DNA from: Streptomyces humidus
GTDB lineage: Bacteria; Actinomycetota; Actinomycetes; Streptomycetales; Streptomycetaceae
Reading direction: 5' to 3'
Length of the DNA stretch: 64,000 nt
NCBI RefSeq assembly: GCF_014649655.1
Contig: NZ_BMTL01000002.1
Location: 62,001 to 126,000 of the forward strand
Part shown: positions 21,730 to 44,445 of the stretch, piece by piece
How positions within the stretch are numbered: position 1 is the first letter of the stretch
Layout: each line of letters opens with the position of its first letter
Notes under the pieces: generated by a model
Databases searched by the model: none
Told to the model about the DNA's origin: nothing
The model's input: only the letters and a program-made list of their open reading frames with translations
Program-made: the position numbers and the translations under genes

Positions 21730-22659
21730 TCACGGGCTCTCCTCGCCCTGGGCGATCTCGACCCGGTGGTGGAAGTCGGCCACGCCGGCCGTCCCGGCGG
21801 CGACGGACAGGACCGTGCAGGCCACCAGGAGCGACGCGGTACGGCGCGTGGCACGGGAGCGCCCCCGGGACGGTTCGAGCAGGGCGGCGACGCGCCGGGG
21901 CACCGGACCGGTCGTCGCCGCGGGCGCGAAGGCCGGGCGGGTGGTCGGCGAGGCCTGACCGGCGAGGGCGGCGCGGGCGATGGCCGTGGCGGTCAGCCGC
22001 CGGTCGCCGACGACTTCCGCGGCGGCCTCGTCGGCGGCACGTTCGGCGGCGAGCCGGATGGCGTCGCGGGTGGCGCGCAGAGCGGGATGGCCGTGGGCGG
22101 CGAGCTCGGCCGCGGCCAGGAAGTAGTGGTGGCCGGACCGGTTGTGGGCGCGTTCGTGCGCGAACAGGGCCTCGCGTTCGGCCGGGCCGAGACTGCGCAG
22201 CATGCCGGTGGTGACGACGATGCGGTGGGGCCGTCCGGGAAGGGCGTACGCGTCCGGGTGGGGCGAGTCGATCACGCACAGGTCGCCGGCGGCGGGGCGA
22301 CGGCCAGCCTGCGTGCGGGCGGTGCGGAAGGCGCGGGTCTGCCGCAGCGCCGAGCGTACGAGGGTCCACGCGCTGAGCGTGAGCACCCCGGTGGCCGCCG
22401 TGGCCGCGGGGAGGACGACATGGTCCGCGGGGGTGCGCAGCGGGTGGACGAGCTCGCCGAGGGCGGCGAACGCGGGAAGGGTGAGCAGCCCGGTCAGGAT
22501 CAGGGCCCCGAGGGCGGCGACACAGGCCCCCGCCAGCGCCAGGGCCGAGGCGGTGAGGACCCACAGCGCCGTCGCGGGGGCCAGGCGGTCGGCGGCGCGG
22601 CGGGCCAGGGGCGGCGCGAGGAAGGGCACGAGCAGCGGCACGAGCAGCAGGGCGGTCAC
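21730..22659 (-). CDS. M56 family membrane metallopeptidase (BlaR1-like)
   Basis: A 309-residue integral membrane zinc protease. Several N-terminal membrane helices (residues 1-110) precede the active site ALFAHERAHNRSGHH, which contains the HExxH motif as HERAH, and there is one C-terminal helix (about residues 275-295). No extracellular penicillin-sensor domain is present, so it is the short M56 form. The GTG start overlaps the stop of the upstream BlaI-like repressor (GTGA), a coupled pair. By analogy with BlaR1/MecR1 it should cleave the repressor on a signal; the signal is unknown here. Confidence 0.9.
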   Translation of the reverse strand: MTALLLVPLLVPFLAPPLARRAADRLAPATALWVLTASALALAGACVAALGALILTGLLTLPAFAALGELVHPLRTPADHVVLPAATAATGVLTLSAWTLVRSALRQTRAFRTARTQAGRRPAAGDLCVIDSPHPDAYALPGRPHRIVVTTGMLRSLGPAEREALFAHERAHNRSGHHYFLAAAELAAHGHPALRATRDAIRLAAERAADEAAAEVVGDRRLTATAIARAALAGQASPTTRPAFAPAATTGPVPRRVAALLEPSRGRSRATRRTASLLVACTVLSVAAGTAGVADFHHRVEIAQGEESP

Positions 22660-27895: not shown

Positions 27896-27900
27896 CCCTC
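27896..27900. repeat. Target site duplication, left copy (CCCTC)
   Basis: The five bases CCCTC directly precede the left terminal inverted repeat and are repeated exactly at 39870-39874 after the right one. Five-base duplications are the hallmark of Tn7-like/Mu-like DDE transposition. Confidence 0.92.
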
Positions 27901-28046
27901 TGTAGGTTCCGCAGTGCCGTGAGCAGTGGGCTCAGCGCTTTCGTTCGTTCCGCGCGAGATGGGCACTGTTTCGTGCGGCTGATCATGAGCAGAATGGTGC
28001 TGGCGAGGGCGGGTCATAGTTACGCTCTGTGGTTGCGCACTTTTGC
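27901..28046 (+). repeat. Transposon left end: terminal inverted repeat and candidate TnsB sites
   Basis: The terminal repeat occupies 27901-27912. Further in are GAGATGGGCACTG (27956-27968) and TTGCGCACTTTTGCGG (28033-28048). These resemble the GATGCGCAC motif repeated at the right end and are probably transposase binding sites. They are more widely spaced than at the right end, as in Tn7. Confidence 0.75.
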
Positions 28047-28199
28047 GGTTGGATGGGTTCTGCGACAAGAGTGATGCCTCAGCGGGAGGGCGAATGGGAT
28101 GCATCAATGGTCGCGAGAAGGGCCGGTTACCCTAACCGGCGATCGTCGGCTATGTTGCCCCGCGCGCTCGGCGCAGGAGGGTGCCGCCGTGCGGCCGCA

Positions 28200-28380
28200 C
28201 GGCCTTTCCACCTGCAGTTCGCCGTTATCCCGCACAAGCGGCTCATGGTGGCCGAGCTCTTGCAGCACGCGGAGCAGCGTCGCGTCACTGGCCACCGAGG
28301 GTGGGGACTCCGACGCGGGCAGACCTTGGCGTGGTGTGGCCGCGTTCCAGGAGGAGCGGTACGAGGGTGACGGTGCAGGG
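28200..28380 (+). pseudogene. Decayed glycosyltransferase-like remnant
   Basis: The forward strand encodes FAVIPHKRLMVAELLQHAE (from about 28218) in one frame. It continues in another frame as TEGGDSDAGRPWRGVAAFQE (from about 28294), and then GTRVTVQ in a third. The order resembles small glycosyltransferase-like proteins that start with a VIPH motif, broken by several frameshifts. The identification is tentative. The rest of 28046-28716 shows no gene. Confidence 0.3.
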
Positions 28381-28718
28381 GGTAGGCCCTCCGCCCGCCG
28401 TAGGTGACGGGAGGTTATCCGGCCGGGGAACCGGCCGCTTCGGGGGCCGCGGTCGTGTCTGGGGAGCAGCGGATGATGGTGCTGGCTTTCCCCAGGTCCA
28501 GGGTCCGCATCACCGATGGGGTACTGCGGCCAGGTCCATTCCTCTGGGTCTCTTTTCCGCGCTCAGCTCGCTCGGCGGTTCGGAGCGATCAGAACGGTCC
28601 GGGACCGGGGTGATCGTCCGAGCCGGAGCCCGAAACAGCTGATCAGGCCAGTCTTTGACCGGGCTGCATGTTTGTTGGCAAGCGTCGCCGACGTTGCCGG
28701 GTTACGGAACGCACGTTC

Positions 28719-28758
28719 AGCAGAACGCCCGACTGGTTGCCCAGCCGGGCGTTCTGCT
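28719..28758. terminator. 13-bp stem hairpin after the lipoprotein gene
   Basis: AGCAGAACGCCCG (28719-28731) pairs perfectly with CGGGCGTTCTGCT (28746-28758). It lies about 60 bases beyond the stop of the minus-strand lipoprotein gene and probably terminates it. Confidence 0.8.
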
Positions 28759-28816
28759 TCCCGGGCTGCCGCCGGGCGGTGTCTCACGTGCTGTGGGTAC
28801 CGCCGGTGCGGGGTGT

Positions 28817-29416
28817 TTACCAGCCTGCCTTGGCGGTGTTGTAGGACGCGCGGCAGGCGGGGTCGGCGGCCGTGGTGGAGAGCTTGGTCATGACTTCCGT
28901 CCAGACCTTCTTGGCCAGCTTCTCCTGCGCCGCGTACTCGGCGGGGACCTCCGGGGCGTGCTTCTTGACCGTCGCGAGGGTGGCGACGGCCCACTTGTTG
29001 CAGGCCGGGGCGGCGGCGTTGCGGTAGCGGTTGTCGAGTTCGGTGGTCACGGCGGGGCCGTTGGTGACGGCCCACTTGTTCCAGGTCGCGCACGCGGGCT
29101 CGGTGAGCAGGGCTTGCTCTTCCTCGCTCAGGTTGCCCACGGCTGCCAGGAAGGCGTTCCACGGCTCGTCGGGAATGGCGTAGCGGGTGGTGGGGAACTT
29201 CTCCCCGGTCTTGAAGATCGCCTCCTGGCAGGCGGGCGGCAGGGGGGCTGCTTGGAGGCTGGCGCCCTTGGTCTGGAACTGGGAGGTGTTCAGGACAGGT
29301 CCGGACTGGGCGTTCGCCTGCGTGGGCGTCGTGGCGAAGGAGCACGCGCCCAGGAGCGCCGCGGAGAGGACCGTTGCGGCAACGGCGGGGCGCTTGAGGA
29401 TACGGGTGGGGTTCAT
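28817..29416 (-). CDS. Putative lipoprotein, transposon cargo
   Basis: A 199-residue precursor with a lipoprotein signal: a basic start (MNPTRILKRP), a hydrophobic core and the lipobox LLGAC, so lipidation is expected at Cys25. The mature part has paired blocks ACATWNKWAVTNGPAV and ACNKWAVATLATVKKHA, an internal repeat about 40 residues apart, and spaced cysteines. No known family is recognised. The ATG follows AAAGGAG, and a strong hairpin lies downstream. It is separated by 222 bases from the fusion enzyme gene and has its own leader, so it may be independently expressed from the same cargo. Confidence 0.8.
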   Translation of the reverse strand: MNPTRILKRPAVAATVLSAALLGACSFATTPTQANAQSGPVLNTSQFQTKGASLQAAPLPPACQEAIFKTGEKFPTTRYAIPDEPWNAFLAAVGNLSEEEQALLTEPACATWNKWAVTNGPAVTTELDNRYRNAAAPACNKWAVATLATVKKHAPEVPAEYAAQEKLAKKVWTEVMTKLSTTAADPACRASYNTAKAGW

Positions 29417-29638
29417 AGCGGTCAGCAGGCTCCTTTACGAGAAGGACAGGGGGCGAGCGCTGGCCCGGTACAGACCACTGCTCGATCAAAGAACGCCGAC
29501 CAGCCCTCACAGGACACGAAAGATCACCCGGTGGAGACGTGTTCGGCGACTGCGAGTGGTGGCTGGGCCGCCCATGTGCCCTCTTCGCGGCGAACCTCAC
29601 GTTGGTGAGGCCGCGCCCCGTGACTGTGCTGTGCGGTT

Positions 29639-31438
29639 CTAGCGGTGGCTTGCGATGTGGGCGTCCTGGTCGAGTTCCGCGGGCTGCGGCACAAGGACCG
29701 CGCCGAAACGTCGGGAGCGGTGGGTGTATTCGGTCACGGCCTGCCACAGGTCACGGCGGTCGATGTCGGGCCAGAGTTTGTCCGTGAAGAGGAGCTCGGC
29801 GTAGGCGGTGTGCCAGGGCAGGAAGTTGGAGATGCGCTGTTCGCCGCCGGTGCGCCACAGGAGGTCGACGTCGGGCAGGTCACCCAGGGGCAGATGGGAG
29901 CGAAGCAGGTGTTCCGACACCCTGGTGCCCTCGAGCTGTCCGGTGCGTGCGGCGCCAGCCAGGGAGTCGGCGGCCTGAGTGAGTTCGCTGCGACCGCCGT
30001 AGTTGAGGCAGAACGTCAGAGTGAGACCGGTGCGATCTTCGGTGGCCGTTTCGTTGGTGCGCAGGAGGTCGACGAAGTCGCTGGGCAGGCCGTCGGGGAG
30101 CCCGGCCCAGCGGATCCGTACGTCGTGGCGCAGGAAGTCTCCGGACTCCAGCTGTTCCCGTGCGAACGTCAGCAGCTTGTCGATCTCCTGCGACGGGCGC
30201 TTCTCCAAGTTCTCGGTGGACAGCAGGTACACGGTCAGGTGGGAGAGCCCTATTTCCAGCGCGCCGTGGACGACGTCGACGAGCATCTCCCCTCCGGTCT
30301 TGTGGCCGTCGCTGCGTGGGAGGCCGCGTGCAGTGGCCCAGCGGCCGTTGCCGTCCATGATGATCGCGACATGCCGCGGCATGTGCTCGGCCGGGAGAGC
30401 CGGCGGGCGGGCTCCACCGGCGTGCGGTTCGGGTGGTTGCAGGAGCTCGGAGGAAGCGGCCCGGGGAGCGGGGAGCACCGGGCGGGTCGGCGGGGGCGCG
30501 GTGCGTAGTTCGGGGAGTGGAAAGAGGCGCCAGGTGATGGCTGCGAGGAGCCGGCCGGGGCCGGTGATGCGCAGGCGGACGGCGAGAGTCGGACGGGCGG
30601 CATGTTGCAGCAGTGTGGGCCCGGCTTTTTCGGCGGCGTGCAGGCGGGCGCGGTAGAGAGTGCAGCCTGTGCGCAGGACGACGGCGGGGCCGGGCGGCAG
30701 ACCGGTCCAGAGCTGCGGTTGGTCCAGCCAGGTGCGGGCCGTGTCCAGGAGGTGGCTGATCAGTGCCTGGACGGCGGGGGTCCAGCGGCGTTGGAGGAGG
30801 TCTGTCTCGCGGGCGCCGAAGCGGTGCAGTTCCTCTGCGGGAAGGGTGATGTCGCCGCGGCTGAGGTCGTCGGCGAGGTCGGTCAGTGAGTCGGTGAGGA
30901 ACAGGCCGTCCGACAGCCGCTGGTAGGCGTCCAGGCGGGTGAGGTGGAGAGGGATGTCGAGGCCGGCGTGTCGCAGCATCGTCAGGCACAGCAGCAGGAA
31001 GGGCACATTGGTGTCCTTGCTGCGGGTCCGCCACTGCTGCCAGGATGCCGCGGCCGGAGCGGTCCGCAGGGCGTCTTTCTCAAGGGCCGTGAAGGTGACG
31101 TCGAAGGCGTCGGCCTTCAGGTTCCAGCACCACATGGTGTGCACCAGCGCCTGGCGCACCGGGTCTTGGCTGGTGCCCTGCCGCAGGTCGGTGTCCAGGG
31201 CTTCGCGCCATGCCCGCAGCCGCTGGGAACCGTCGCCCTCGGTGGTGTCGGCCAGGTCGTCGGCAAGGCAGTGCGCGGCGAAAAGGGCCCAGCATGCCGG
31301 ACGCAGAGCAGAAGGCATCAGCTGCAGACACCAGAACTCCTCGGCCCTGGTGGTCCGCAGATAATCGTGACACGCCTTGTACGCGGCTTTCAGCTGCGGG
31401 TCGTGGATCTCGGCCTGCGCGCAGTCGGCAGCGAACAC
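29639..31438 (-). CDS. Phytoene/squalene synthase-like - cis-prenyltransferase fusion enzyme
   Basis: A 599-residue two-domain protein. Residues 1-290 are a squalene/phytoene-synthase-like domain. Its first Asp-rich motif is DDLAD (60-64), and the second block DLADDLSRGDITLPAEEL (187-204) matches the family's D-x2-D-D-x2-R-G-x-I-x-LP signature. A Pro-rich linker (about 310-350) leads to a complete undecaprenyl-diphosphate-synthase domain (353-599): HVAIIMDGNGRWA with catalytic Asp362, STENLEKRPSQE, and RTGGEQRISNFLPW with ELLFTDKLWPDI. Both active sites look intact. The GTG at 31438 follows AAGGAG. It overlaps the permease gene by 49 bases and ends the ABC operon. I predict chain building in cis followed by condensation or release; the product is unknown. 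Confidence 0.88.
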   Translation of the reverse strand: MFAADCAQAEIHDPQLKAAYKACHDYLRTTRAEEFWCLQLMPSALRPACWALFAAHCLADDLADTTEGDGSQRLRAWREALDTDLRQGTSQDPVRQALVHTMWCWNLKADAFDVTFTALEKDALRTAPAAASWQQWRTRSKDTNVPFLLLCLTMLRHAGLDIPLHLTRLDAYQRLSDGLFLTDSLTDLADDLSRGDITLPAEELHRFGARETDLLQRRWTPAVQALISHLLDTARTWLDQPQLWTGLPPGPAVVLRTGCTLYRARLHAAEKAGPTLLQHAARPTLAVRLRITGPGRLLAAITWRLFPLPELRTAPPPTRPVLPAPRAASSELLQPPEPHAGGARPPALPAEHMPRHVAIIMDGNGRWATARGLPRSDGHKTGGEMLVDVVHGALEIGLSHLTVYLLSTENLEKRPSQEIDKLLTFAREQLESGDFLRHDVRIRWAGLPDGLPSDFVDLLRTNETATEDRTGLTLTFCLNYGGRSELTQAADSLAGAARTGQLEGTRVSEHLLRSHLPLGDLPDVDLLWRTGGEQRISNFLPWHTAYAELLFTDKLWPDIDRRDLWQAVTEYTHRSRRFGAVLVPQPAELDQDAHIASHR

Positions 31439-32229
31439 GGTGCTCCTTGGGTGGAAGAGGGGACCTGGCCGGTCACCGCGGACCGGGTGCGCCGACGGAA
31501 GGCGAGCAGGCTGAGAAGGGCCGCACCGGCGAACCAGGCCAGCTGCACGCCCAGGCAGCTCAGGAGAACGGAGTGGGAGAAACCGGCGGCGGAAGCGGAC
31601 TGCATGGCGCCGTAGGAAGGCAGCAGACGCACCAAGGCGGTGTCGGCTCCTTTGCTGGCGATAGGATTTTGCAGCGCGAGGTCGATGACGCTGATCATCA
31701 CGACGAGGAAGATGCCCTCCAGCTCGCGGCGCACCACCGTGCCCAGGGCGACGCCCACGGCCCCGTAGGTCATGGCCGCGCTGAACAGCGAAACGGCCAG
31801 CAGCACGGGCTGGCGGGGTGACCAGTACACGCACATGACGACCGTGGCGTAGAGGCTGACGACGGCCGAGGCCAGAACGAGGGAGGCGACCTTTGCCAGC
31901 AGCAGCTGGGGGCGGGGGTAGCCGGCCATGGCCAGCCGCCGGTCGAAGGTTCCCGAACTGAAGGTGGCCGAGAACATCGCGAACCCGACGATCAGCGTCA
32001 CCGCGTTCAGCGCACCGCTGATCTGCGTGAGCTCGTTACCGCGGGCGATGAGGTTCTGACCGGTGGCCCAAAGCCGGAACGACACCCGCACGTCCACGAT
32101 CATGAACTGCCCCAGCGAGATCCACAGAGGCACGAACAGGATCACCAGCGCCATGGCGAACTGGTTGCGCACATGCTCGATCAGCGCGAACCGTGTGGCG
32201 ATGACGAACCGGACCAGGGAAGGGCTCAC
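31390..32229 (-). CDS. ABC transporter permease
   Basis: A 279-residue ABC-2/CcmB-like permease with about six membrane helices. Hydrophobic segments begin with FAMALVILFVPLWISLGQF and end with VQLAWFAGAALLSLLAF. The start is a GTG overlapping the ATPase stop (GTGA). With the ATPase it forms an exporter half, which would act as a dimer. The 3' end overlaps the fusion-enzyme gene, so the two are tightly linked. It probably exports the terpenoid or polyprenyl product of that enzyme; this is inferred from operon structure only. Confidence 0.85.
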   Translation of the reverse strand: MSPSLVRFVIATRFALIEHVRNQFAMALVILFVPLWISLGQFMIVDVRVSFRLWATGQNLIARGNELTQISGALNAVTLIVGFAMFSATFSSGTFDRRLAMAGYPRPQLLLAKVASLVLASAVVSLYATVVMCVYWSPRQPVLLAVSLFSAAMTYGAVGVALGTVVRRELEGIFLVVMISVIDLALQNPIASKGADTALVRLLPSYGAMQSASAAGFSHSVLLSCLGVQLAWFAGAALLSLLAFRRRTRSAVTGQVPSSTQGAPCSLPTARRPRSTTRS

Positions 32230-32831
32230 GACGCCACCGCCGCCCCGGCGCGCAGCACGCCCTCCTCCAGGCGCCACAGGACGTCCAGCCGATCCACGTC
32301 GTAGGCGAGATGCGAGACCACGAGCACGGACTGGCCAGCGGCACGTAGCTGAGCGGCCAGCTCCCAAAAACGCAGATACGTGTCCCAGTCGAAGCCCTGG
32401 TAGGGCTCGTCCAGCAGCAGCACATCCGGATCGTGCATCAGCGCCAGGGCCAGGTTGAGCTTCTGCCGGGTCCCTCCGCTGAGCACCCCGACCCGCTCCT
32501 GCGCGAACTCGGAGAACCGCAACGCCTCCATGATCTCCTCAGCCCGGCACAGGTCCGGCAACGAGTACGCGATCCTGAAGAACTCCAGATGCTGGCGGAC
32601 GGTGAACGCGTCGTTGAGGTCCACCTGCTGCGGGCAGTACCCGAACCGACCCTCATGCCGCACCACCCCACGATCGGGCCGCAGCTCACCGGCGAGAATC
32701 TTCAACAGCGTGGACTTCCCCGCACCGTTCTCCCCGACGATGCCGACCAGCGCGCCACGCGGCAGCTCGACGTCCACCCCGCGCAGCACCGCCCGGCTGC
32801 CGTAGGCGTGATGGATACCTGCCACCTTCAT
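32226..32831 (-). CDS. ABC transporter ATP-binding protein
   Basis: A 201-residue nucleotide-binding domain. Walker A is GENGAGKST, the Q-loop is GYCPQQ, the signature is LSGGTRQKLNLA, Walker B is VLLLDEP and the H-loop is VVSHLAYD, so it is a complete ATPase. The ATG at 32831 follows GGGGG seven bases ahead. It is the first gene of the cargo operon, with a good promoter at 32857-32885 and a dyad further upstream. It powers the permease encoded immediately downstream. Confidence 0.92.
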   Translation of the reverse strand: MKVAGIHHAYGSRAVLRGVDVELPRGALVGIVGENGAGKSTLLKILAGELRPDRGVVRHEGRFGYCPQQVDLNDAFTVRQHLEFFRIAYSLPDLCRAEEIMEALRFSEFAQERVGVLSGGTRQKLNLALALMHDPDVLLLDEPYQGFDWDTYLRFWELAAQLRAAGQSVLVVSHLAYDVDRLDVLWRLEEGVLRAGAAVAS

Positions 32832-32856
32832 CAACGCCCCCTGTGGTCGAACCCGT

Positions 32857-32885
32857 CTTCTACCAAGAACGCCACAGACAGCCAA
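32857..32885 (-). promoter_or_regulatory. Cargo operon promoter
   Basis: On the minus strand TTGGCT (32880-32885) and TAGAAG (32857-32862) are 17 bases apart, which suits a vegetative sigma factor. The start of transcription would lie about 20 bases before the ATPase start codon. Confidence 0.5.
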
Positions 32886-32911
32886 TGGTCACGCCGGACG
32901 GCAGATACACA

Positions 32912-32931
32912 GGTCGTACCTGCGTACGACC
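32912..32931. promoter_or_regulatory. 8-4-8 inverted repeat upstream of the cargo promoter
   Basis: GGTCGTAC-CTGC-GTACGACC is a perfect dyad 27 bases upstream of the predicted -35. It may be an operator for the cargo operon. A terminator for tniQ, which ends at 33110, is a weaker alternative because no T run follows. Confidence 0.5.
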
Positions 32932-33109
32932 AGGACCTACCGTGCTCCAGACGCTTGGCGTCGGATCCAGGCCGCGCCGCGTAGCGCGGCCCAGCCAAGG
33001 GGCGGGGAAGGACTTCGAGACCTGTCCGTCCCGCGTTCCGCACGAACAGACGATGCGCGACTGGCCACTGTTCGCGGCGGCCGGCTCGGCCCCAGGGCGT
33101 CAGGCGCGA

Positions 33110-35704
33110 TCAGACCGCATCTGGGCGATCCGGGCCGGGTGGTTGGGACCGCTCGTGGTCGAGACGCTGTAGCAGTAGCTGTGCTTCGTCGAGCAGGGCC
33201 TGGCCGCGTGCCGTCAGGGCGACCGGCCGTTTGCGGTGGTTGAAGATCGCGAAGCCCGCAGCCGTCTCCAGCTTCTTCAGACGCCCGTTGAGGGAGGTTC
33301 GGGGGATGCCGAGCGTGAGTGCCGCCGCGCGGCGGGTGCGATACCCGGGAAGCAGCAGGGCAGTCCGTAGTTCTTCCAGTGCGCCCGCGCGCGTGCTGAT
33401 CCGTTCCATGTCCGGCGACAGCGGGACGCCGAGGCCGACGAAGGGGCTGGGCTGCCACGCTGGGGGCGCACTGTGGCCAGCCGCGTGGCGGGGAATCTCC
33501 CACGCGTCGAGGAGCTGTGAGACGTTCGTATCGGGTGCGGCCAGTTCGCGGGCGATGTCCGCCACCGTCCTGCCCTTGTCGTGGTACTCGGTACGAAGCC
33601 ATGCCAGGTCGACGGATCGCTTCAGTTCGCCCGGTGCGCGGCGCGGGCGCAGCGGGATGTTCGCCTGCTGCAGCGCGGTCTTGACGATCGACGGGGTGCA
33701 TCCGGCGAGTTCGGCGGTCTGCCGCTGTTGCAGGCGCTGCCGCTGGTAGAGATCGCGCAGCTGGTCGGGTACCAGGTAGCCCTGCCGCGGCGGGCGGGGG
33801 TAGTTGCCTTTGTTGTGTGGGCGGGTCTGGGCGCTCAGACGGCGGTTCTCCATCAGCAGGCGCAGTTGGTGCACCGTGAGGCCGAGCGTCTGGGCGACGT
33901 CCCGGGCGGTGGAGTCGGGGGTCAGCAGTGCGCGGACGCACTCAGTGGGGATGTCGACGAGCGGCTGGGGCGGAGCGATGTCATCGAGCCAGTGTGCCGG
34001 CGGCTCCCACGTCACCGGCTCGTCGGTGACATGGTGGGCGGCGAGGTTGCGGTGCGCCTGCTCGTCGAGGAAGGCGAGGATCTCCGGGTGCGTCCGGTAG
34101 GCGAAGCGGTGTGTCCAGTCGGGTGCGTGGTTACCGGGCAGCGGGTCGGCCCCGAGCAGCAGCCGCCGCAGTTGCCAGCGCAGCCGTTCCAGGTGAACTC
34201 GTTGGAACTGCCGGGTGCCCAGGCTCTTACAGAGACGCCAGTGGGCGTTCTCATCGAGGAGCAACGGATTCATCTCGTCGGCGAACAGGGCCCGGCGGCG
34301 TGCGTAGTCGATCGGTACCTCGTGCGCGTCGAGAACGCGTGCGTAGTGCACCAGGATGCTGCAGATGTGATCGGCGTCGACGAATGCCAGCAGCGACTCC
34401 AGGTTGCTGCGGAACTGCGGGTTGCCCATGATCCGTGCGGCCTGGCGGTGCCCGGCCGGGCCGCCGGGGATGAGCATGAGGCTCGCGCAGGCTCGTCGGA
34501 TGCCCGCGATCCGCGGCTGGTTCGGGCTCTTGGGCGGCAGCAGCCGCAGCGTCCAGGACGGCCAGAGCATCCCGGGCGTCTTGGACGCCCGCACAGTGAT
34601 GTCGGCCTCGTTCAGGTGGGGCTCGGCGGGCTCGGCGGTGGCGGTGCCGTAGCGCAGACGGGCCTTGAGGGTGAGTTGCGGATCGGACGCTGCCAGGATG
34701 CGCCTGACGACGCGCGGGCCCGCGGACGTCCAGTTGCGCAGATACCGTGTCGGATGCTCGCGCAGCTCGCCGGTCTCCTTCTCGGGCGAGAGGCACATCC
34801 ACGCGAAGACCTCGTCGACGAGGGGATGGTCGGGGTCGGTGGCGATGGCGGCAAGGGCGGTCCCGATCGCGACGTTGCGCGCGTCATGAACCTCCCACGA
34901 CGCCTCGTCCCCGCCGAGGGCCCGTCCGCAAGCGTGGACGATGTCCAGGGCGACGGCGGGGACGTCCTCGGGGCGGATGCGGATGCCGCGCAGAGCTCTA
35001 CGGCCCAGATACGACAGCTCACCGGCCCGCTCCAGCGCCGCAGGGCTGTGGTGATCGGCCATGACCGTCGCGTCCACATGGGCCTGGGCGAGCAGGACCG
35101 CCCCGCCGACGCGGAGGCCGACCGCGGGAGCCTTCGTCAGCTCGAACCCGCAGCGCGTCCCGCGCCCGCCGCGGTCGGTCAGGGCGCGGCAGGCTTCCGG
35201 GCGGGGCAGCATGCGGTGGTTCCCGCCACTGGCCACCGGTGGGTGCTTGCCGCAGGCCGGGCAGTGCTCCAGGAGCAGCAGGTTGTGCCGCGTGCAGGCG
35301 AAGGCCCAGCCCAGGCGCCAGTGCAGCTGCCACCGCCACTGGTCGTCTGCCAGGCAGGCGGGGCAGTAACGCGAGGTGGTGCCGTAGACCCGCCAGTGGG
35401 CCGGCGCCGTCAGACGCCGGGTCTGGGCAGCGATGCGCACCAGGGAGCCGTCGAAGCGCTCCAGAGTCATCGACCGCAGCTGCTCGACCTCGACGCCGGT
35501 GCGGGCCTGGAGCAGGCCGGCCTCGTCGTCGTTGAGGCGGCGCACCATCCGGCGCAAGGCGGCGTGCGACAGGCCCAGGTAATCGGCGAAGTCCACAGTG
35601 TGCGTGCGCAGTCGGTGCGCGTACCGCTCCAGCCAACTGTCCAGTGCCTCCCCGGGGGACGGCGCGACGAACAGGGGGATGCGCTCATCCGTCCAGGTGC
35701 TCAC
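33110..35704 (-). CDS. tniQ: TniQ/TnsD-type target selector with multiple HTHs
   Basis: An 864-residue TniQ family protein. The N-terminus shows the TniQ pattern (LFVAPSPGEALDSWLERYAH) and a zinc finger with CPAC, CTRH and CPAC ligands (C114, C117, C137, H140, C148, C151). The C-terminal third is a string of helix-turn-helix units (DVAQTLGLTVHQLRLL, TAELAGCTPSIVKTAL, DIARELAAPDTNVSQLL). It ends in a LysR-like winged helix with RRAAALTLGIPRTSLNGRLK. Its length and C-terminal DNA-binding modules resemble TnsD proteins that choose fixed sites. The GTG start overlaps the tnsC stop (GTGA). Confidence 0.92.
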   Translation of the reverse strand: MSTWTDERIPLFVAPSPGEALDSWLERYAHRLRTHTVDFADYLGLSHAALRRMVRRLNDDEAGLLQARTGVEVEQLRSMTLERFDGSLVRIAAQTRRLTAPAHWRVYGTTSRYCPACLADDQWRWQLHWRLGWAFACTRHNLLLLEHCPACGKHPPVASGGNHRMLPRPEACRALTDRGGRGTRCGFELTKAPAVGLRVGGAVLLAQAHVDATVMADHHSPAALERAGELSYLGRRALRGIRIRPEDVPAVALDIVHACGRALGGDEASWEVHDARNVAIGTALAAIATDPDHPLVDEVFAWMCLSPEKETGELREHPTRYLRNWTSAGPRVVRRILAASDPQLTLKARLRYGTATAEPAEPHLNEADITVRASKTPGMLWPSWTLRLLPPKSPNQPRIAGIRRACASLMLIPGGPAGHRQAARIMGNPQFRSNLESLLAFVDADHICSILVHYARVLDAHEVPIDYARRRALFADEMNPLLLDENAHWRLCKSLGTRQFQRVHLERLRWQLRRLLLGADPLPGNHAPDWTHRFAYRTHPEILAFLDEQAHRNLAAHHVTDEPVTWEPPAHWLDDIAPPQPLVDIPTECVRALLTPDSTARDVAQTLGLTVHQLRLLMENRRLSAQTRPHNKGNYPRPPRQGYLVPDQLRDLYQRQRLQQRQTAELAGCTPSIVKTALQQANIPLRPRRAPGELKRSVDLAWLRTEYHDKGRTVADIARELAAPDTNVSQLLDAWEIPRHAAGHSAPPAWQPSPFVGLGVPLSPDMERISTRAGALEELRTALLLPGYRTRRAAALTLGIPRTSLNGRLKKLETAAGFAIFNHRKRPVALTARGQALLDEAQLLLQRLDHERSQPPGPDRPDAV

Positions 35705-36837
35705 GCCGACCTCTTCTTCCGGCCGGCCTGGCGGGTGGGACGGGTGGTCAGCAGACCGGCCGTGATCGCGGCCTGCAGTTCCTTGCGGGCCTGTTCGGCG
35801 GCGGCGTCGTTCTTCACCATGTTCATCAGCTCCTCATCCAGGCGCTCGGCGCCGGTGCGGATCGCGCGCAGGCAGCCGCGGTTGATCAGCGCCATGAGAG
35901 AGGCGAAGTGGCCGGTGGAGCGGGCGAAGAGGTAGTCCGAGAGGTCCTCGGCGAGCATGCCGGGATGGGCGTCGGCGAGGACGAGCTTGTGCTCGATCGT
36001 CTTGAGTAACAGGCGCCACTGATGGCGGCCCTCGTCGTCATCGACCTGGAAGGGCGGCAGCGTCAGCGCGGTGGTGCGGCGCCCGAACTGGGCGAGCGGG
36101 CTGTTCTTCGGTTCGAAGCCCTCGTGCAGGATGCCGCGCTCCTGGACGCCGACGCCGACGTAGATCAGGGTGAGGGGGAAGACGTTGGAGAGGTACTTCA
36201 GCTGGTTGGCCATGCGGACGGAGTTGGACTTGCTGCCGGCCAGGAAGTGGATGTCGTCGATGATCATGGCGACGGTCTTCATCGACAGCACGGCGTCCAC
36301 GGCCCGCTCGGCCAGCGTGTCGGCGTCCCCCTTGACGGGCAGCCCGTAGAACCGGCAGATCGCCGCGTTCAGACCGCGGATCTGCGTATTGCCGCTCAGC
36401 GCGATGTAGATCACCGGCACCCGCCGGTCCCCGGCCAGTGTGGTCGCCCCGCGCAGCCTCACCTGGCGGCGGAACAGATCGCAGCCGTAGGCGCGCACCG
36501 CCGTGCTCTTACCGAGCCCCGGATGGGCATCGACCAGGGCGGCCGGCTTGGTCTTGTCGCCGTCCTGCCGATTCGACTCGATAATCTCGCGCAGGTCCGC
36601 ATGCAGAGCCAGGAGCTGTGGCGTGTCGATGGGGCCGATGTTGGCGTGCCAGACCTCCCGGCCATCGTTGTACATCAACAGATCCCGCGGCGACAGTCCG
36701 GCGAGTTCTGCCCGGGTGAGCCGCTCGGGCTGGATGCGGTCCGGGCCGTTGACCTCCTGCAGCCAGCCCGGAAGGCGGGTGGGCGAATACTGGCGGTCGT
36801 CGCCCTCGAACAGCCAGGGACTGTCGGCCGTACTCAA
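35701..36837 (-). CDS. tnsC: TnsC/TniB-like AAA+ transposition ATPase
   Basis: A 378-residue AAA+ ATPase that links target selection to the transposase. Walker A is HPGLGKST (residues 105-112), and Walker B is VAMIIDDIHFL with Asp194-Asp195. A C-terminal helical part follows (LSDYLFARSTGHFASLMALI). The TTG start overlaps the tnsB stop as TTGA, and the stop overlaps the tniQ start. Coupling implies fixed stoichiometry. TnsC-type proteins form filaments on DNA and recruit TnsA/TnsB. Confidence 0.92.
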   Translation of the reverse strand: MSTADSPWLFEGDDRQYSPTRLPGWLQEVNGPDRIQPERLTRAELAGLSPRDLLMYNDGREVWHANIGPIDTPQLLALHADLREIIESNRQDGDKTKPAALVDAHPGLGKSTAVRAYGCDLFRRQVRLRGATTLAGDRRVPVIYIALSGNTQIRGLNAAICRFYGLPVKGDADTLAERAVDAVLSMKTVAMIIDDIHFLAGSKSNSVRMANQLKYLSNVFPLTLIYVGVGVQERGILHEGFEPKNSPLAQFGRRTTALTLPPFQVDDDEGRHQWRLLLKTIEHKLVLADAHPGMLAEDLSDYLFARSTGHFASLMALINRGCLRAIRTGAERLDEELMNMVKNDAAAEQARKELQAAITAGLLTTRPTRQAGRKKRSA

Positions 36838-39013
36838 CGGCTCCCCCAGACGTCGGCGTAGTACTCATCCTCATCGACCAGGCCAGCGCTCTCCTCGTCT
36901 GCCGGGGCTGCCTCACACTCCTCGTCCTCGTCGTCGTCCCCGCCCAGGTCCTCACCCACAGGCGCGACCACCTGCAACTCCGGTGCCGGCCCACGGCCGG
37001 CTCCCGCGTCCGGCGAGCTGAGCGCTGCCAGACGGCGCACGGAGGGGAGCTCGGCGATCGCGTCGGCTTCGGGGTCGCCTTCGCCGACCAGCCGCCGACG
37101 GTCCTGCGACAGGCGCACGGCCATACGTCGCTCGGCCCGGTCCACGGTCAGCCCGGCACCCCAGCGTTCCAGCAACTCGATCAGCGCGCGCTTGGTGTCC
37201 GGGAAACGATGCGTGCTGGCCGCGATCCGGCGTGCGTACTTCAACGCTTCCAGGCTGGCAGGCCCGTTCAGGGCCGGGGCGTGCTCCCAGGCCAGGGTGT
37301 GCCACAGGTGAGACTGCTTCGGATCCTGGAAGTAGATCTTCCTGATGTCGGCGCGATCCACGGCGAGGGGCCATTTCCCGGCGTGTTCGCCGCGGTGCGG
37401 GCTGATCCGATTGCGGTAGTCGTCGAGCCCCGCGCCGTTGTAGCGGAGCCCGTTGATCTCCATCCCGTAGTGGTGGATGGGGCGCCACTCCTCTTCCAGG
37501 AACTCGAACGCGAGGCTCGGCCTGGACGGGATGCGCAAGGGCCCCGCCCGGTTCACACCGTGCTCGAACATCTCCAGCGGGCTCAGCTTCAGACCCGGGA
37601 CTTCCGGGACTGTCAGCCCTCGGTGATGCCGCCTGTGATAGATCAAAGTGATCCACTCACGGATGATCATCTCAAGCTCGTCCAGAAAGAAGTACGCCTC
37701 GGCCTCACCTTCTCCCCCCGGCTGTGCACATCCGGCCCCTTGTAGCCCGGAAGTGCAGCCAGAAGCCCCTGGTTCAGCGTTTTGAACCACCGCTCCACCG
37801 GTTTGTCGGTCGGCGTATGGGGGCGAGCCGGCTGCAGCGAGATGTCGAGCTTCGCGCTGACGCTCGCGATGTGGTTCGAGACGTAGATCCGGCCGTGGTC
37901 ATAGATGATCGTCTCCGCCGCGACCGCGGGCAGCAGCGGCTGCCCGTGCGCGTCCACCAGCTTCTGCGCGTCGAACACCACCGTGGATGGAACCCCGCAG
38001 TACGGGAGCGGCTCGCCCGTTGAAGCAGACGGCACCTCCCGCGGTCGGATCGTCTCGAACAGGACACCGGCCACGTCGGTCGACTTCGTCGATACCGGCG
38101 TCAGACGCAACCCGGTGATCACCTTGCTGTAGAGGTCCATGGCGACGGTGAGTTCGCACTGCACCCACCGGCAGGTCACCGGCTCCATTGCGAAGACATC
38201 CAGGCTGTTGGTGTCCAGCACGACGTACTCACCCGGTCGCGTCGCCCGCAGCTTGCCGAAGACCCCCTGGGGACGGTTCGCGATGGACCGCTTCCCCTTC
38301 GTACTGCCCTGGAACGCGTTCGTCCCCCGACCGAGTTCCTTCAGCAGTGCATAGCCCGTGGTCTGCTTCGGAATGCTCACCTCATCACTGCCGTACTTCT
38401 TAGCCAGCCGTTCTTCGATCTCCATCAGCACCAGGCCACGAACCGGGCGGCTGGACTTCTCCAAGCTCCCGATGACCGTGCGTGCCATCTCCAACCAGCG
38501 CGGATCGGCCCGGTCCAGCACGCCTTTGGGCTGGCGCTTGCTCACCAGCCCGGCCGGCCCGTCCCGCTCGACCTTGGACACCCATCGCCGGACCGTTGCC
38601 GGGTCGACTCCCAGCTCGGTGGCCTTTGCCCGGTACCGGTGCATCAAAGGCATCCCTGGCGCATAGTCCGGCCGCGGCTCACCCTCCAAAGCCAACTCGG
38701 AAGAACCGAGTTGAAAGCCGAAGCGAACTTCCTGCACATGCCGAAACCGAACGGTGAGCGCGTCGTCCTCCGCACTACTGAGACCGCCCAGCAACGCTGC
38801 GGCCGCCGGCTCCGCAGGCGAGGTCTCCACCAGGAACTCGGTAGAGGGGTGAGCCAGCAACACCGACAAGTCGACCTGCCGCCACGTGGGGCGGCCCTCC
38901 GCCGACATCTGCTGAAGGAGGATGCGGCGGCCCTCGATCTCCGCGATCGTGAACTGCTCGCCGTCATAGACGAGTGGCAGACCAGTCCGCAGAGTCGTTG
39001 TCCAGGCGTTCAC
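36834..39013 (-). pseudogene. tnsB: TnsB/TniA-like DDE transposase, frameshifted
   Basis: The two pieces add up to a 726-residue rve-type transposase if one base is restored. The N-terminal piece (GTG at 39013) carries an HTH (LGVDPATVRRWVSKVERDG) and the whole catalytic triad: Asp267 in VVLDTNSL, Asp372 in IYDHGRIYVS and Glu407 in PVERWFKTLN, a D-x34-E spacing. The frame breaks at about 37703-37719, at a run of six G, and resumes as EAEAYFFLDELEMIIREW with the C-terminal domain that contacts TnsC. It may be a slippery-site frameshift, a mutation or a sequencing error. If real and not rescued, the element cannot move by itself. Confidence 0.88.
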
Positions 39014-39762
39014 AGTGACCTCCGCAGGACCCAGTCGCCACTCAGCGGACGGGACAAATCAGTGGTCAGCCGCCCAGACCACACCAGCGCCAAGAGCGCT
39101 GGTCGCGCCTCGTGGTCCGGGCGCTCAGCTGCCAGCCGTCGCTCGGCGACACCGAGTCGGTCACCGTCCTGCACGCTTTCCCAAGCGCGCTCGATCTCGG
39201 CCTCCGGCACCACGCCCGGGCGACGGTAGGCCGCCAGGAACCGGACGTTCTCCAAGACCACCCGGTCCGCGCCGGACCAGATCTCGTACTCCCAACCGTG
39301 CCGTTCGACCAGGTCACCCGGCCAAGCCAGCGCCTCCGCAATCTCGGGGTCCGTGAGCCGGTCTGCAGGCTTGACGTTCACCACCCGCACCGCTCCCGAC
39401 TCCATGATCAGCAAGAAGTCCGGCACGTGCCGACGTACTCGATCGCCTACCCGAGCGGTCAGGTGACACGGCTGGGCATGGATCCCCCGCACGGCAGGAT
39501 CCATGTCGGCCAGGAGAAGCCGTGCCAGCTCCAAGCGGCTCTCATACACCACCGGGCCAGCCATCGTTGCCGACGAGTACCGCCCTGAGTAGTGCGCTTG
39601 GCCGTGGACGGAGCGAAACTTCCGCCAGGGAACTGACCATGTGAAATCCGCCAACCGCAGGTCTTTGAACGGGACCTGGCGCACCGACGCGTCGTCGTAA
39701 CGCACCGACGCCATCGGCTGCTTGTACTTCCCGCGGACCCGGGCTGGACTCGAAATGGCCAT
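39010..39762 (-). CDS. tnsA: TnsA-like endonuclease
   Basis: A 250-residue TnsA-type restriction-like nuclease that cuts the 5' strands at the element's ends, giving cut-and-paste movement. The catalytic set is Glu74 (YESRLE), Asp115 (HVPDFL) and Lys131 (VVNVKP). Upstream are the family lead-in SVPWRKFRSVHGQAHYSGRY, and downstream a winged-helix-like C-terminal part that would contact TnsC. ATG start with a weak ribosome binding site. Only 107 bases separate the start from the element's end, and these hold the TnsB sites, so transposase binding probably represses the operon. Confidence 0.92.
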   Translation of the reverse strand: MAISSPARVRGKYKQPMASVRYDDASVRQVPFKDLRLADFTWSVPWRKFRSVHGQAHYSGRYSSATMAGPVVYESRLELARLLLADMDPAVRGIHAQPCHLTARVGDRVRRHVPDFLLIMESGAVRVVNVKPADRLTDPEIAEALAWPGDLVERHGWEYEIWSGADRVVLENVRFLAAYRRPGVVPEAEIERAWESVQDGDRLGVAERRLAAERPDHEARPALLALVWSGRLTTDLSRPLSGDWVLRRSL

Positions 39763-39790
39763 AGGCCGGAAGCTAGTTACCGTGCGGAGT

Positions 39791-39869
39791 CAGTGCGCAC
39801 AGATCCCTGGAATTGCGCATCCGGTGCGCATCTCACGGGTACAGTGTGCATCGGTTCGCGGAACCTACA
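39791..39869 (-). repeat. Transposon right end: terminal inverted repeat and clustered TnsB sites
   Basis: The terminal repeat is 39858-39869. Inside it are four closely spaced copies of a TGCGCA-type site: CAGTGCGCACA (39791-39801), TTGCGCATC (39813-39821), GGTGCGCATCTC (39823-39834) and CAGTGTGCATCG (39842-39853). Dense overlapping sites at one end and sparse sites at the other are the Tn7 pattern. Confidence 0.82.
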
Positions 39870-39874
39870 CCCTC
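39870..39874. repeat. Target site duplication, right copy (CCCTC)
   Basis: Identical to 27896-27900; it directly follows the right terminal inverted repeat. Confidence 0.92.
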
Positions 39875-44006: not shown

Positions 44007-44044
44007 GGCAGGGCCTCCTCTGGGAGTTCGCGTCCCATCTCGGT

Positions 44045-44185
44045 GGTGCACAGGACGACGGCCCCGGGTCTGACTCGCGATGCGCCCCCGCTCCGGGCGG
44101 CGCATCGATCACAGTGGCGCGACCGTGCCGGATTTCCACCGGCTTCCGTGATCCCGTCGTCGATAACAGAGCGACGGTACCGTGT
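44045..44185 (-). promoter_or_regulatory. Cobalamin riboswitch
   Basis: On the minus strand the leader of cbtB contains GCCGGTGGAAATCCGGCACG followed by GTCGCGCCACTGTGA (44110-44146), the B12-box core. Downstream is the conserved GAGTCAGACCC region (about 44065-44077). High cobalamin should reduce cbtBA expression, so cobalt is taken up only when B12 is short. The limits given are approximate. Confidence 0.92.
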
Positions 44186-44445
44186 GTCGCGTCCATGGCC
44201 AATACCGCGCCACCTGGGGTGATGCCGTTCTCTGCTGTCGTGTGGCCCGGATCACCCGTCGGCGACGGGCCTGTGGGGGCCGGAGAGGACCCGGTGCGCG
44301 GTCGGCGCTCTCCGGCCGGCAGGCGCCGGAGCGGGGGTCCCGTCCCTGGCCCGCGCCCCTGTCCCGCGGCGTGATCCGCGTGGCCGCGTGGCGCGCCGCG
44401 CGACCCACTGGTGGGTTCCGGGCGGCCGGTGCCAGAGTCTGGGCC

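Follow-up and report, generated by a model that had tools for sequence, protein, structure and literature searches.

What occupies the interval between the FUSC exporter gene and cobH in Streptomyces humidus, and is it a mobile element that can still move? The window considered here is a stretch of 64,000 nucleotides (assembly GCF_014649655.1, contig NZ_BMTL01000002.1, positions 62,001 to 126,000), and within it lies an element of 11,969 bp (27901–39869) that a sequence-only reading had described as an intact, recently inserted Tn7-like element with a terpenoid cargo. The explanation that we regard as probable is that of an actinobacterial Tn7-like transposon of mosaic make-up, with a broken tnsB, an odd insertion site and a cargo for isoprenoid synthesis and export.

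Ends and transposition genes

The left and right (R) ends of the element are defined by the following features:

27896..27900, no strand: target-site duplication CCCTC, left copy (sequence)
27901..27912, plus strand: left-end terminal inverted repeat TGTAGGTTCCGC (sequence)
27919..27991, plus strand: left-end array of three putative TnsB sites, starting at 27919, 27959 and 27985 (motif count; spacing like that of other left ends)
39794..39851, minus strand: right-end array of four putative TnsB sites (motif count)
39858..39869, minus strand: right-end terminal inverted repeat TGTAGGTTCCGC (sequence)
39870..39874, no strand: target-site duplication CCCTC, right copy (sequence)

Taken alone, the letters of the terminal repeat are weak evidence for element ends. 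The GC-rich window contains 1,678 perfect 12-bp inverted pairs at a spacing of 1–60 kb, six of which, the element's own pair among them, have a matching 5-bp direct flank. What raises the ends above chance is that ends of the same form recur across the element family. TnsB relatives were found at 50 loci (numbered with the prefix L), and 43 of 47 relatives with tnsA have an R end of this form immediately before that gene (the misses being L026, L040, L043 and L052). Both ends together with a matching 5-bp duplication are present in nine relatives: L019, L024, L033, L036, L037, L039 and L049, and, with longer DNA, L022 (20.2 kb) and L011 (41.7 kb). First-pass end pairs of L009, L011, L042 and L054 (8–9 of 12 matches) were treated as chance; in L013 and L048 the left tip is complete but lacks a matching duplication, and no left end of the L009 element was found within the 55 kb read. 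In the 9.71-Mb genome of the window (181 contigs) the repeat has 19 matches at up to one mismatch, and only the two element ends are exact, so that the 12-mer is not scattered over many unrelated positions, an outcome that had been named in advance as fatal to the idea. The boundaries of the element are real, and the exact 12-bp ends with CCCTC on both sides stand as first described.

The inner part of the ends also resembles that of Tn7. The motif RTGVRCA, which was picked after inspection of the ends, occurs in four same-strand copies inside the R end and three inside the left end, the background rate being 0.085 per 100 bp and strand; every one of the 42 overlapping 93-bp stretches that contain at least four copies falls on the R end. 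The four sites on the tnsA side are close together and the three on the other side are spaced. The TGT...ACA ends, the unequal site arrays and the 5-bp duplication expected of a Tn7-like element are all present. The GC content is 75.1% and 73.5% in the flanks and 66.6–70.9% in the parts of the element. As a separate observation, L120 (Streptomyces sp. WAC 01529) has a cluster of several ends, among them a 5.2-kb pair flanked by a CGCGT duplication of its own and two imperfect ends separated by 5 bp, a pattern of nested or tandem insertions at one site.

The transposition genes follow one another from the R end in the order TnsA, TnsB, TnsC/TniB and TniQ:

39010..39762, minus strand: TnsA endonuclease (NF033179, 233 bits, cut-off 110)
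37667..39013, minus strand: TnsB, N-terminal and catalytic part, about 436 codons common to relatives and then out of frame
36834..37718, minus strand: TnsB, C-terminal part, in another frame
35701..36837, minus strand: TnsC/TniB AAA+ regulator (PF05621, 39.9 bits, cut-off 22.4; PF13401, 46.1 bits, cut-off 27)
33110..35704, minus strand: TniQ/TnsD-like target selector, 864 aa (PF06527, 86.9 bits, cut-off 27)

Profile matches for all four proteins confirm that a TnsABC-TniQ machinery lies between the ends. TnsA scores 25.9 bits with Pfam PF08722, just below the cut-off of 26.5; TnsB matches the PADLOC TnsB model (2.9e-11) and TnsB chains of the PDB (8e-7). Of 51 aligned rows, which include the window row and gapped rows, 46, 45 and 43 retain the DDE triad residues D267, D372 and E407, respectively. 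One scan of viral contigs with TnsB revealed no virus-borne relatives.

It is at tnsB that the description of the element as intact breaks down. The gene is split into two frames by a frameshift after codon ~436, downstream of the catalytic triad, and close relatives (L010, L011 and L012) encode a single-frame TnsB of 726–727 aa. If a gene is counted as whole when its open frame reaches 620 aa, tnsB is whole in 39 of 49 relatives (L057, which runs off its contig, being excluded) and broken in ten. As the window gene reads, the catalytic core could be made and the C-terminal part of TnsB could not. With tnsB broken in this way, behind the catalytic domain, the element is probably immobile by its own genes, a supply of TnsB in trans being a possible alternative.

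Several known systems resemble this one. The combination of TnsABC and TniQ is shared with an actinobacteria-dominated clade of Tn7-like elements (Benler et al., 2021; PMC8649781), no member of which had been experimentally characterised according to the consulted sections of that paper, and the same sections give Tn7 itself the asymmetry of three left and four right subterminal sites that the window element has. The likeness to the clade noted here is one of gene content, and a terpenoid cargo is absent from those sections. Tn7706 of Rhodococcus erythropolis NI86/21, as portrayed in the parts consulted of PMC12915292, is likewise actinobacterial and has tnsA, tnsB, tniB, tniQ and inverted and direct repeats, but it measures 19,377 bp and exists in nine complete or partial copies, mostly on plasmids. 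Type I-E CRISPR loci of Streptomycetaceae also contain Tn7-like tnsB and tnsC; reportedly they have no terminal structures (PMC12231136, in part), whereas the window element has ends. No cas genes showed among the element genes, in which no search aimed at cas was made.

Mosaic structure and choice of target

Different parts of the element resemble different relatives. In L009–L013, TnsA is 92–96% and the first 436 residues of TnsB are 93–98% identical to those of the window, and the identities of TniQ are 86, 59, 80, 44 and 37%, respectively. In L020, L022 and L055 the same part of TnsB reaches 67–70% and TnsC 87–88%, with TniQ at 81, 76 (over 625 of 864 residues) and 60%. In L020, L022 and L055, sliding identity shifts at the TnsB-TnsC border, about 3.0 kb inward of the R end; in L012 and L013 it does so at the TnsC-TniQ border, about 4.2 kb inward. 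TGCGCA is the prevailing core in the R ends of this TnsAB group, and TGAGCA-like cores prevail in the left ends of the window, L011 and L013, which would fit an R end that travelled with TnsAB. To judge from these comparisons, the element is mosaic, a combination of two related elements in which the R end and TnsAB resemble one group and TnsC and TniQ another. The recruitment and exchange of selector modules has been described for Tn7, where recognition of the attachment site is tentatively ascribed to the C-terminal part of TnsD (Faure et al., 2023; PMC10293859, consulted in part). Compared with the systems treated in that portion, the window family joins near-identical TnsAB to different TniQs of one family; the main text of the article has 'Streptomyces' only as a reagent name and does not contain 'Actinobacteria'.

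Where the relatives insert is in many cases a fixed place beside a target gene. In relatives with a nameable flank, the stop codon of a gene falls anywhere from 26 bases outside the R end to 67 bases within it. The flanking gene is gap in L009, L014, L015 and L017 and a family-2 glycosyltransferase in L010, L011, L020 and L022; a PucR-type regulator gene and NlpC/P60 proteins are further R-end flanks, and a tRNA-Met lies about 60 bases away in L023–L025 (ARAGORN). The names GAPDH, PucR, NlpC/P60, ABC and DnaB were each derived from a single member, and glycosyltransferase from two; the flank proteins of L030 and L038 had no Pfam match. A quick TniQ tree, with long branches flagged, was built from the 42 rows that were left after four of 46, all shorter than 480 aa (L026, L034, L043 and L056), had been dropped; 25 rows have a target label. 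In this tree the target classes mostly coincide with clades, with seven changes of target label. The window and L009–L013, with their shared TnsB, have TniQs from four branches of this tree, and their sites are gap, the glycosyltransferase (two), an ABC gene, the PucR-type gene and, for the window, the region upstream of cobH.

Two observations concern these flanks in their own right. The terminal TGTAG of the R end gives the flanking frame an in-frame TAG stop, 5 bases into the element, in six of 29 flanks (L010 9145–9149, L011 9145–9149, L030 9090–9094, L038 2501–2505, and L016 and L031, whose frames look spurious). In contig 8 of genome G418, a second glycosyltransferase gene appears as two pieces, at 449020 and 504658, about 55 kb apart, which straddle the 41.7-kb element.

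The copy in the window is placed differently: its R flank lies upstream of cobH and shows no gene end, so that the fixed place beside a target gene, a usual trait of Tn7-like elements that does not define them, is missing. In the tree, the TniQs of the window and L009 pair with each other within the glycosyltransferase clade, and both elements are sited elsewhere. When the L020 glycosyltransferase was used as query, it was found in all four genomes with an element there and in neither the window's own genome (G000) nor that of L009 (G416); the window insertion is possibly a secondary site, the preferred glycosyltransferase site being missing from the genome. A cobalamin riboswitch was considered as the target and rejected: the sole Rfam match (E ≤ 0.5, positions 22000–46000) is such a riboswitch at 44043–44200 on the minus strand, near cobalamin genes and about 4 kb from the R end. 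A tRNA gene was rejected as well, as no tRNA was found in the window.

The age of the insertion was approached from both sides. The end of FUSC was matched at E ≤ 1e-40 in 45 of 392 genus genomes, the window's own included, and six of the 44 others were inspected (about 4 kb past FUSC in five and 10 kb in G131). cobH lies downstream of FUSC in one of the six, G131, where the two genes are separated by an M20-peptidase-like gene (recognised by eye) and no element; homology to the window stops 62 bases before the left end and restarts 143 bases after the right end. Since this gene fills the gap in G131, it was either lost in the window's line or gained in G131. From the other side, the cobH region was matched in 52 of 61 genomes, and FUSC was absent from the 29 loci fetched besides the window's own (about 1.5 kb on each side). 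The intact ends had been taken as a sign of recent insertion, a step that finds no support: intact ends give no date, and in G131, the only syntenic relative found, the site is not cleanly empty.

The cargo operon and its relatives

Between the left end and tniQ lie four genes on one strand:

28817..29416, minus strand: putative lipoprotein, 199 aa (lipobox seen by eye; helical model of low confidence)
29639..31438, minus strand: squalene/phytoene-synthase (SQS/PSY) domain fused to a cis-prenyltransferase domain, start codon a guess (PF00494, 99.3 bits; PF01255, 224.7 bits)
31390..32241, minus strand: ABC-2 type permease, start uncertain (PF12698, 22.8 bits, under the cut-off of 31.6)
32226..32885, minus strand: ABC transporter ATPase, start uncertain (PF00005, 103.8 bits)

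On the frames given, the ATPase, permease and fusion genes overlap end to start, and the profile matches agree with the earlier proposal of an ABC exporter and prenyl enzymes between the ends; the permease homologue of L148 passes the PF12698 cut-off with 32.2 bits. The lipoprotein has no Pfam or NCBIfam match, its model has a mean pLDDT of 63.5 and no PDB match at E ≤ 0.001, and homologues are present in the L009 element and in five of 149 other genus genomes searched. A defence-system cargo was also considered and rejected, as the PADLOC matches were confined to ATPase-type models for the ABC protein, the TniQ/TnsB models and a weak additional mad1 match for TniQ.

The fusion exceeds the thresholds for both of its families (27 bits for the UppS-type cis-prenyltransferase and 26 bits for the squalene/phytoene synthase fold). 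In an alignment of eight rows, MDGNGRW and RTGxxxRxSN are invariant in the prenyltransferase half, and D181, D185 and D189 of the second Asp-rich motif in the synthase half; the first such motif is DDxxD in six of the seven rows that cover the site and DNxxD in L146 (in the window translation the two motifs are residues 60–64 and 183–191). The structure model, with a mean pLDDT of 72.5, has an all-helical and mostly confident first domain and a poor C-terminal end. A profile of seven fusions retrieves HpnC first and then LvqB4 (85.4 bits), CqsB4 (72.0 bits) and CrtM with its first half, and dodecaprenyl and decaprenyl synthases, with cyclolavandulyl diphosphate synthase lower (76.4 bits), with its second half, all of these being profile resemblances. 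Over the cis-prenyltransferase domain, identity to the dodecaprenyl diphosphate synthase of Thermobifida fusca (7cpm), which was solved as a stand-alone enzyme, is 48–49%. LvqB4 (7vws) is a phytoene-synthase-like carbazole prenyltransferase. NzsG and CqsB4 are enzymes of that kind (PMC7466098, in the part consulted), and all three share with the fusion the SQS/PSY fold and two Asp-rich motifs. Unlike them, the fusion combines two predicted activities in one chain, and no carbazole genes were recognised. Because phytoene-synthase-like enzymes prenylate carbazoles, it is a reasonable guess that the fusion is a two-step enzyme, which would make a prenyl donor and then couple it; head-to-head coupling of the kind that yields squalene is just as possible. 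No description of such a fusion was recognised in the literature searched, which left subscription journals mostly outside.

Operons similar to this one are not confined to the element. Fusions that are full-length or nearly so, at 48–51% identity, occur in six of 99 other genomes searched (with two pieces in a seventh, G009) and in two plasmid records, one of them from S. tendae and probably identical with a contig of genome G027; nine such stretches of 16–26 kb each, two of which are probably one place, contain no Tns genes and no element end. L148 has ATPase, permease and fusion in the window order at about 72, 58 and 48% identity, and its 17.5 kb contain neither a Tns gene nor an element end. 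In L164 the ATPase and permease are accompanied by a separate SQS/PSY enzyme, a trans-polyprenyl synthase and the lipoprotein. Outside the window's own genome a transporter adjoins the lipoprotein gene in four of five loci; in L165, L166 and L168 the set is ATPase, permease and lipoprotein. Since similar operons recur without Tns genes nearby, isoprenoid synthesis and export by the cargo is likely, as indicated by the families and the recurring gene order. In L146 (6584–9934, G084) the fusion appears to have an additional, flavoprotein-like part at its N-terminus (Trp_halogenase, 22.6 bits against a cut-off of 21), for a protein of 1116 aa from its predicted start.

Among the 50 loci, in the DNA examined, only L009 also has permease, prenyl-enzyme and lipoprotein matches; its cargo comprises the lipoprotein, PAP2, a stand-alone UppS, a P450, an ABC pair and a GMC oxidoreductase. 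Beside it stands a full elongation factor G gene (L121, 17248–19338), possibly a resistant copy of a target or simply a host gene, the left end of L009 not having been found. Other cargoes, in each of which few proteins were checked, include MerB and an SBF-family transporter in L022, a P-type ATPase, CopD, nitric oxide synthase and MMPL in L011, and, near L010, a TerD-kinase and nSTAND. The nitric oxide synthase gene (L118, 7289–8512) lies with MMPL and aminotransferase genes in the cargo of the 41.7-kb S. microflavus element and possibly represents a second biosynthetic cargo.

Weighing the explanations

In the mechanism that we propose, TnsA and TnsB would act on the four R and three left sites to cut and join the ends, TnsC would bridge, and the large TniQ would choose the target. 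To judge by comparison, TniQ clades go for the most part with the 3' ends of particular genes or with a tRNA gene. The cis-prenyltransferase half of the fusion would build a Z-prenyl diphosphate that the SQS/PSY-like half would couple or transfer, and the ABC exporter and lipoprotein would carry the hydrophobic product out. An element that is whole and active, with a recent insertion and a tnsB frameshift due to a sequencing or assembly error, is a rather unlikely rival: the ends and duplication are perfect, TnsA, TnsC and TniQ are open frames and the break is near a run of G, but the ten broken copies of tnsB among relatives indicate that decay is common in the family. Programmed frameshifting, by which ribosome slippage would yield full TnsB and act as a switch for transposition, might draw on L013, whose tnsB breaks a few codons further on; it is very improbable, given that the two breaks differ in place and kind and that TnsB is read in a single frame in 39 of 49 relatives. 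As for two chance repeats around an old transposase remnant, the six flanked pairs of the window speak for this reading, but it is practically negligible in the face of same-form ends at tnsA in 43 of 47 relatives, nine times paired with duplications.

The cargo has an unlikely rival reading of its own, in which an extra cis-prenyltransferase and an ABC pump would alter the cell-wall lipid carrier and confer tolerance to wall-active antibiotics, with no terpenoid being made. The prenyltransferase domain is indeed like long-chain polyprenyl synthases, the pump is present and L009 adds a PAP2 phosphatase. Against such a role speak the fused SQS/PSY domain with its conserved Asp-rich motifs, the P450 and GMC oxidoreductase beside relatives, and L164, where a trans-polyprenyl synthase takes the place of the cis enzyme.

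A number of observations weigh against the explanation of a mosaic, immobile element with an isoprenoid cargo. A sequencing error may underlie the frameshift, and neither the FUSC nor the cobH side yielded a clean empty site. TniQ is itself uneven, its last 115 residues (92% identical to L020 and 68% to L009) showing the reverse of the remainder (about 87–90% to L009). TniQ clade fails to explain every site: L009, with the TniQ nearest to the window's, is inserted on the 3' side of gap, as the gap clade is, L055 stands beside L010 in the tree and its flank is not the glycosyltransferase, L030 and L031 fall inside the PucR group with other flanks, and the ABC label appears in two places. The exact gap position of L009 also means that a missing preferred site is not the whole story. 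With regard to the cargo, three of the four transporter-lipoprotein loci (L165, L166 and L168) have no match to a prenyl enzyme in the stretch examined, and two of them (L166 and L168) are near a wax-ester-synthase-like gene (about 100 bits, cut-off 310). Finally, the two cargo-sharing elements differ more in cargo (42–65% identity) than in Tns genes (86–98%), and the cargo was therefore not simply inherited with the Tns genes.

We hold the mosaic Tn7-like transposon to be the best explanation, and a wider proposal can be offered tentatively, as a real possibility that falls short of probable. A near-constant R end and TnsAB would operate under varied modules of TnsC, TniQ and left end, a single transposase lineage being re-aimed by ordinary recombination to different attachment genes, and the same lineage would have mobilised a terpenoid operon with an uncharacterised bifunctional fusion, which would make a Z-prenyl diphosphate and pass it straight on to its squalene-synthase-like coupling domain. 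Selector swapping and the fusion enzyme are the points of most interest, and the cargo is uncommon for Tn7-like elements. The window element and L009–L013 constitute a natural series for the way in which TniQ sets the target and for the fit of TniQ and TnsC to TnsAB. The cargo draws attention to a recurrent fusion of SQS/PSY and cis-prenyltransferase domains, and suggests Tn7-like elements as carriers of specialised-metabolite genes in Streptomyces.

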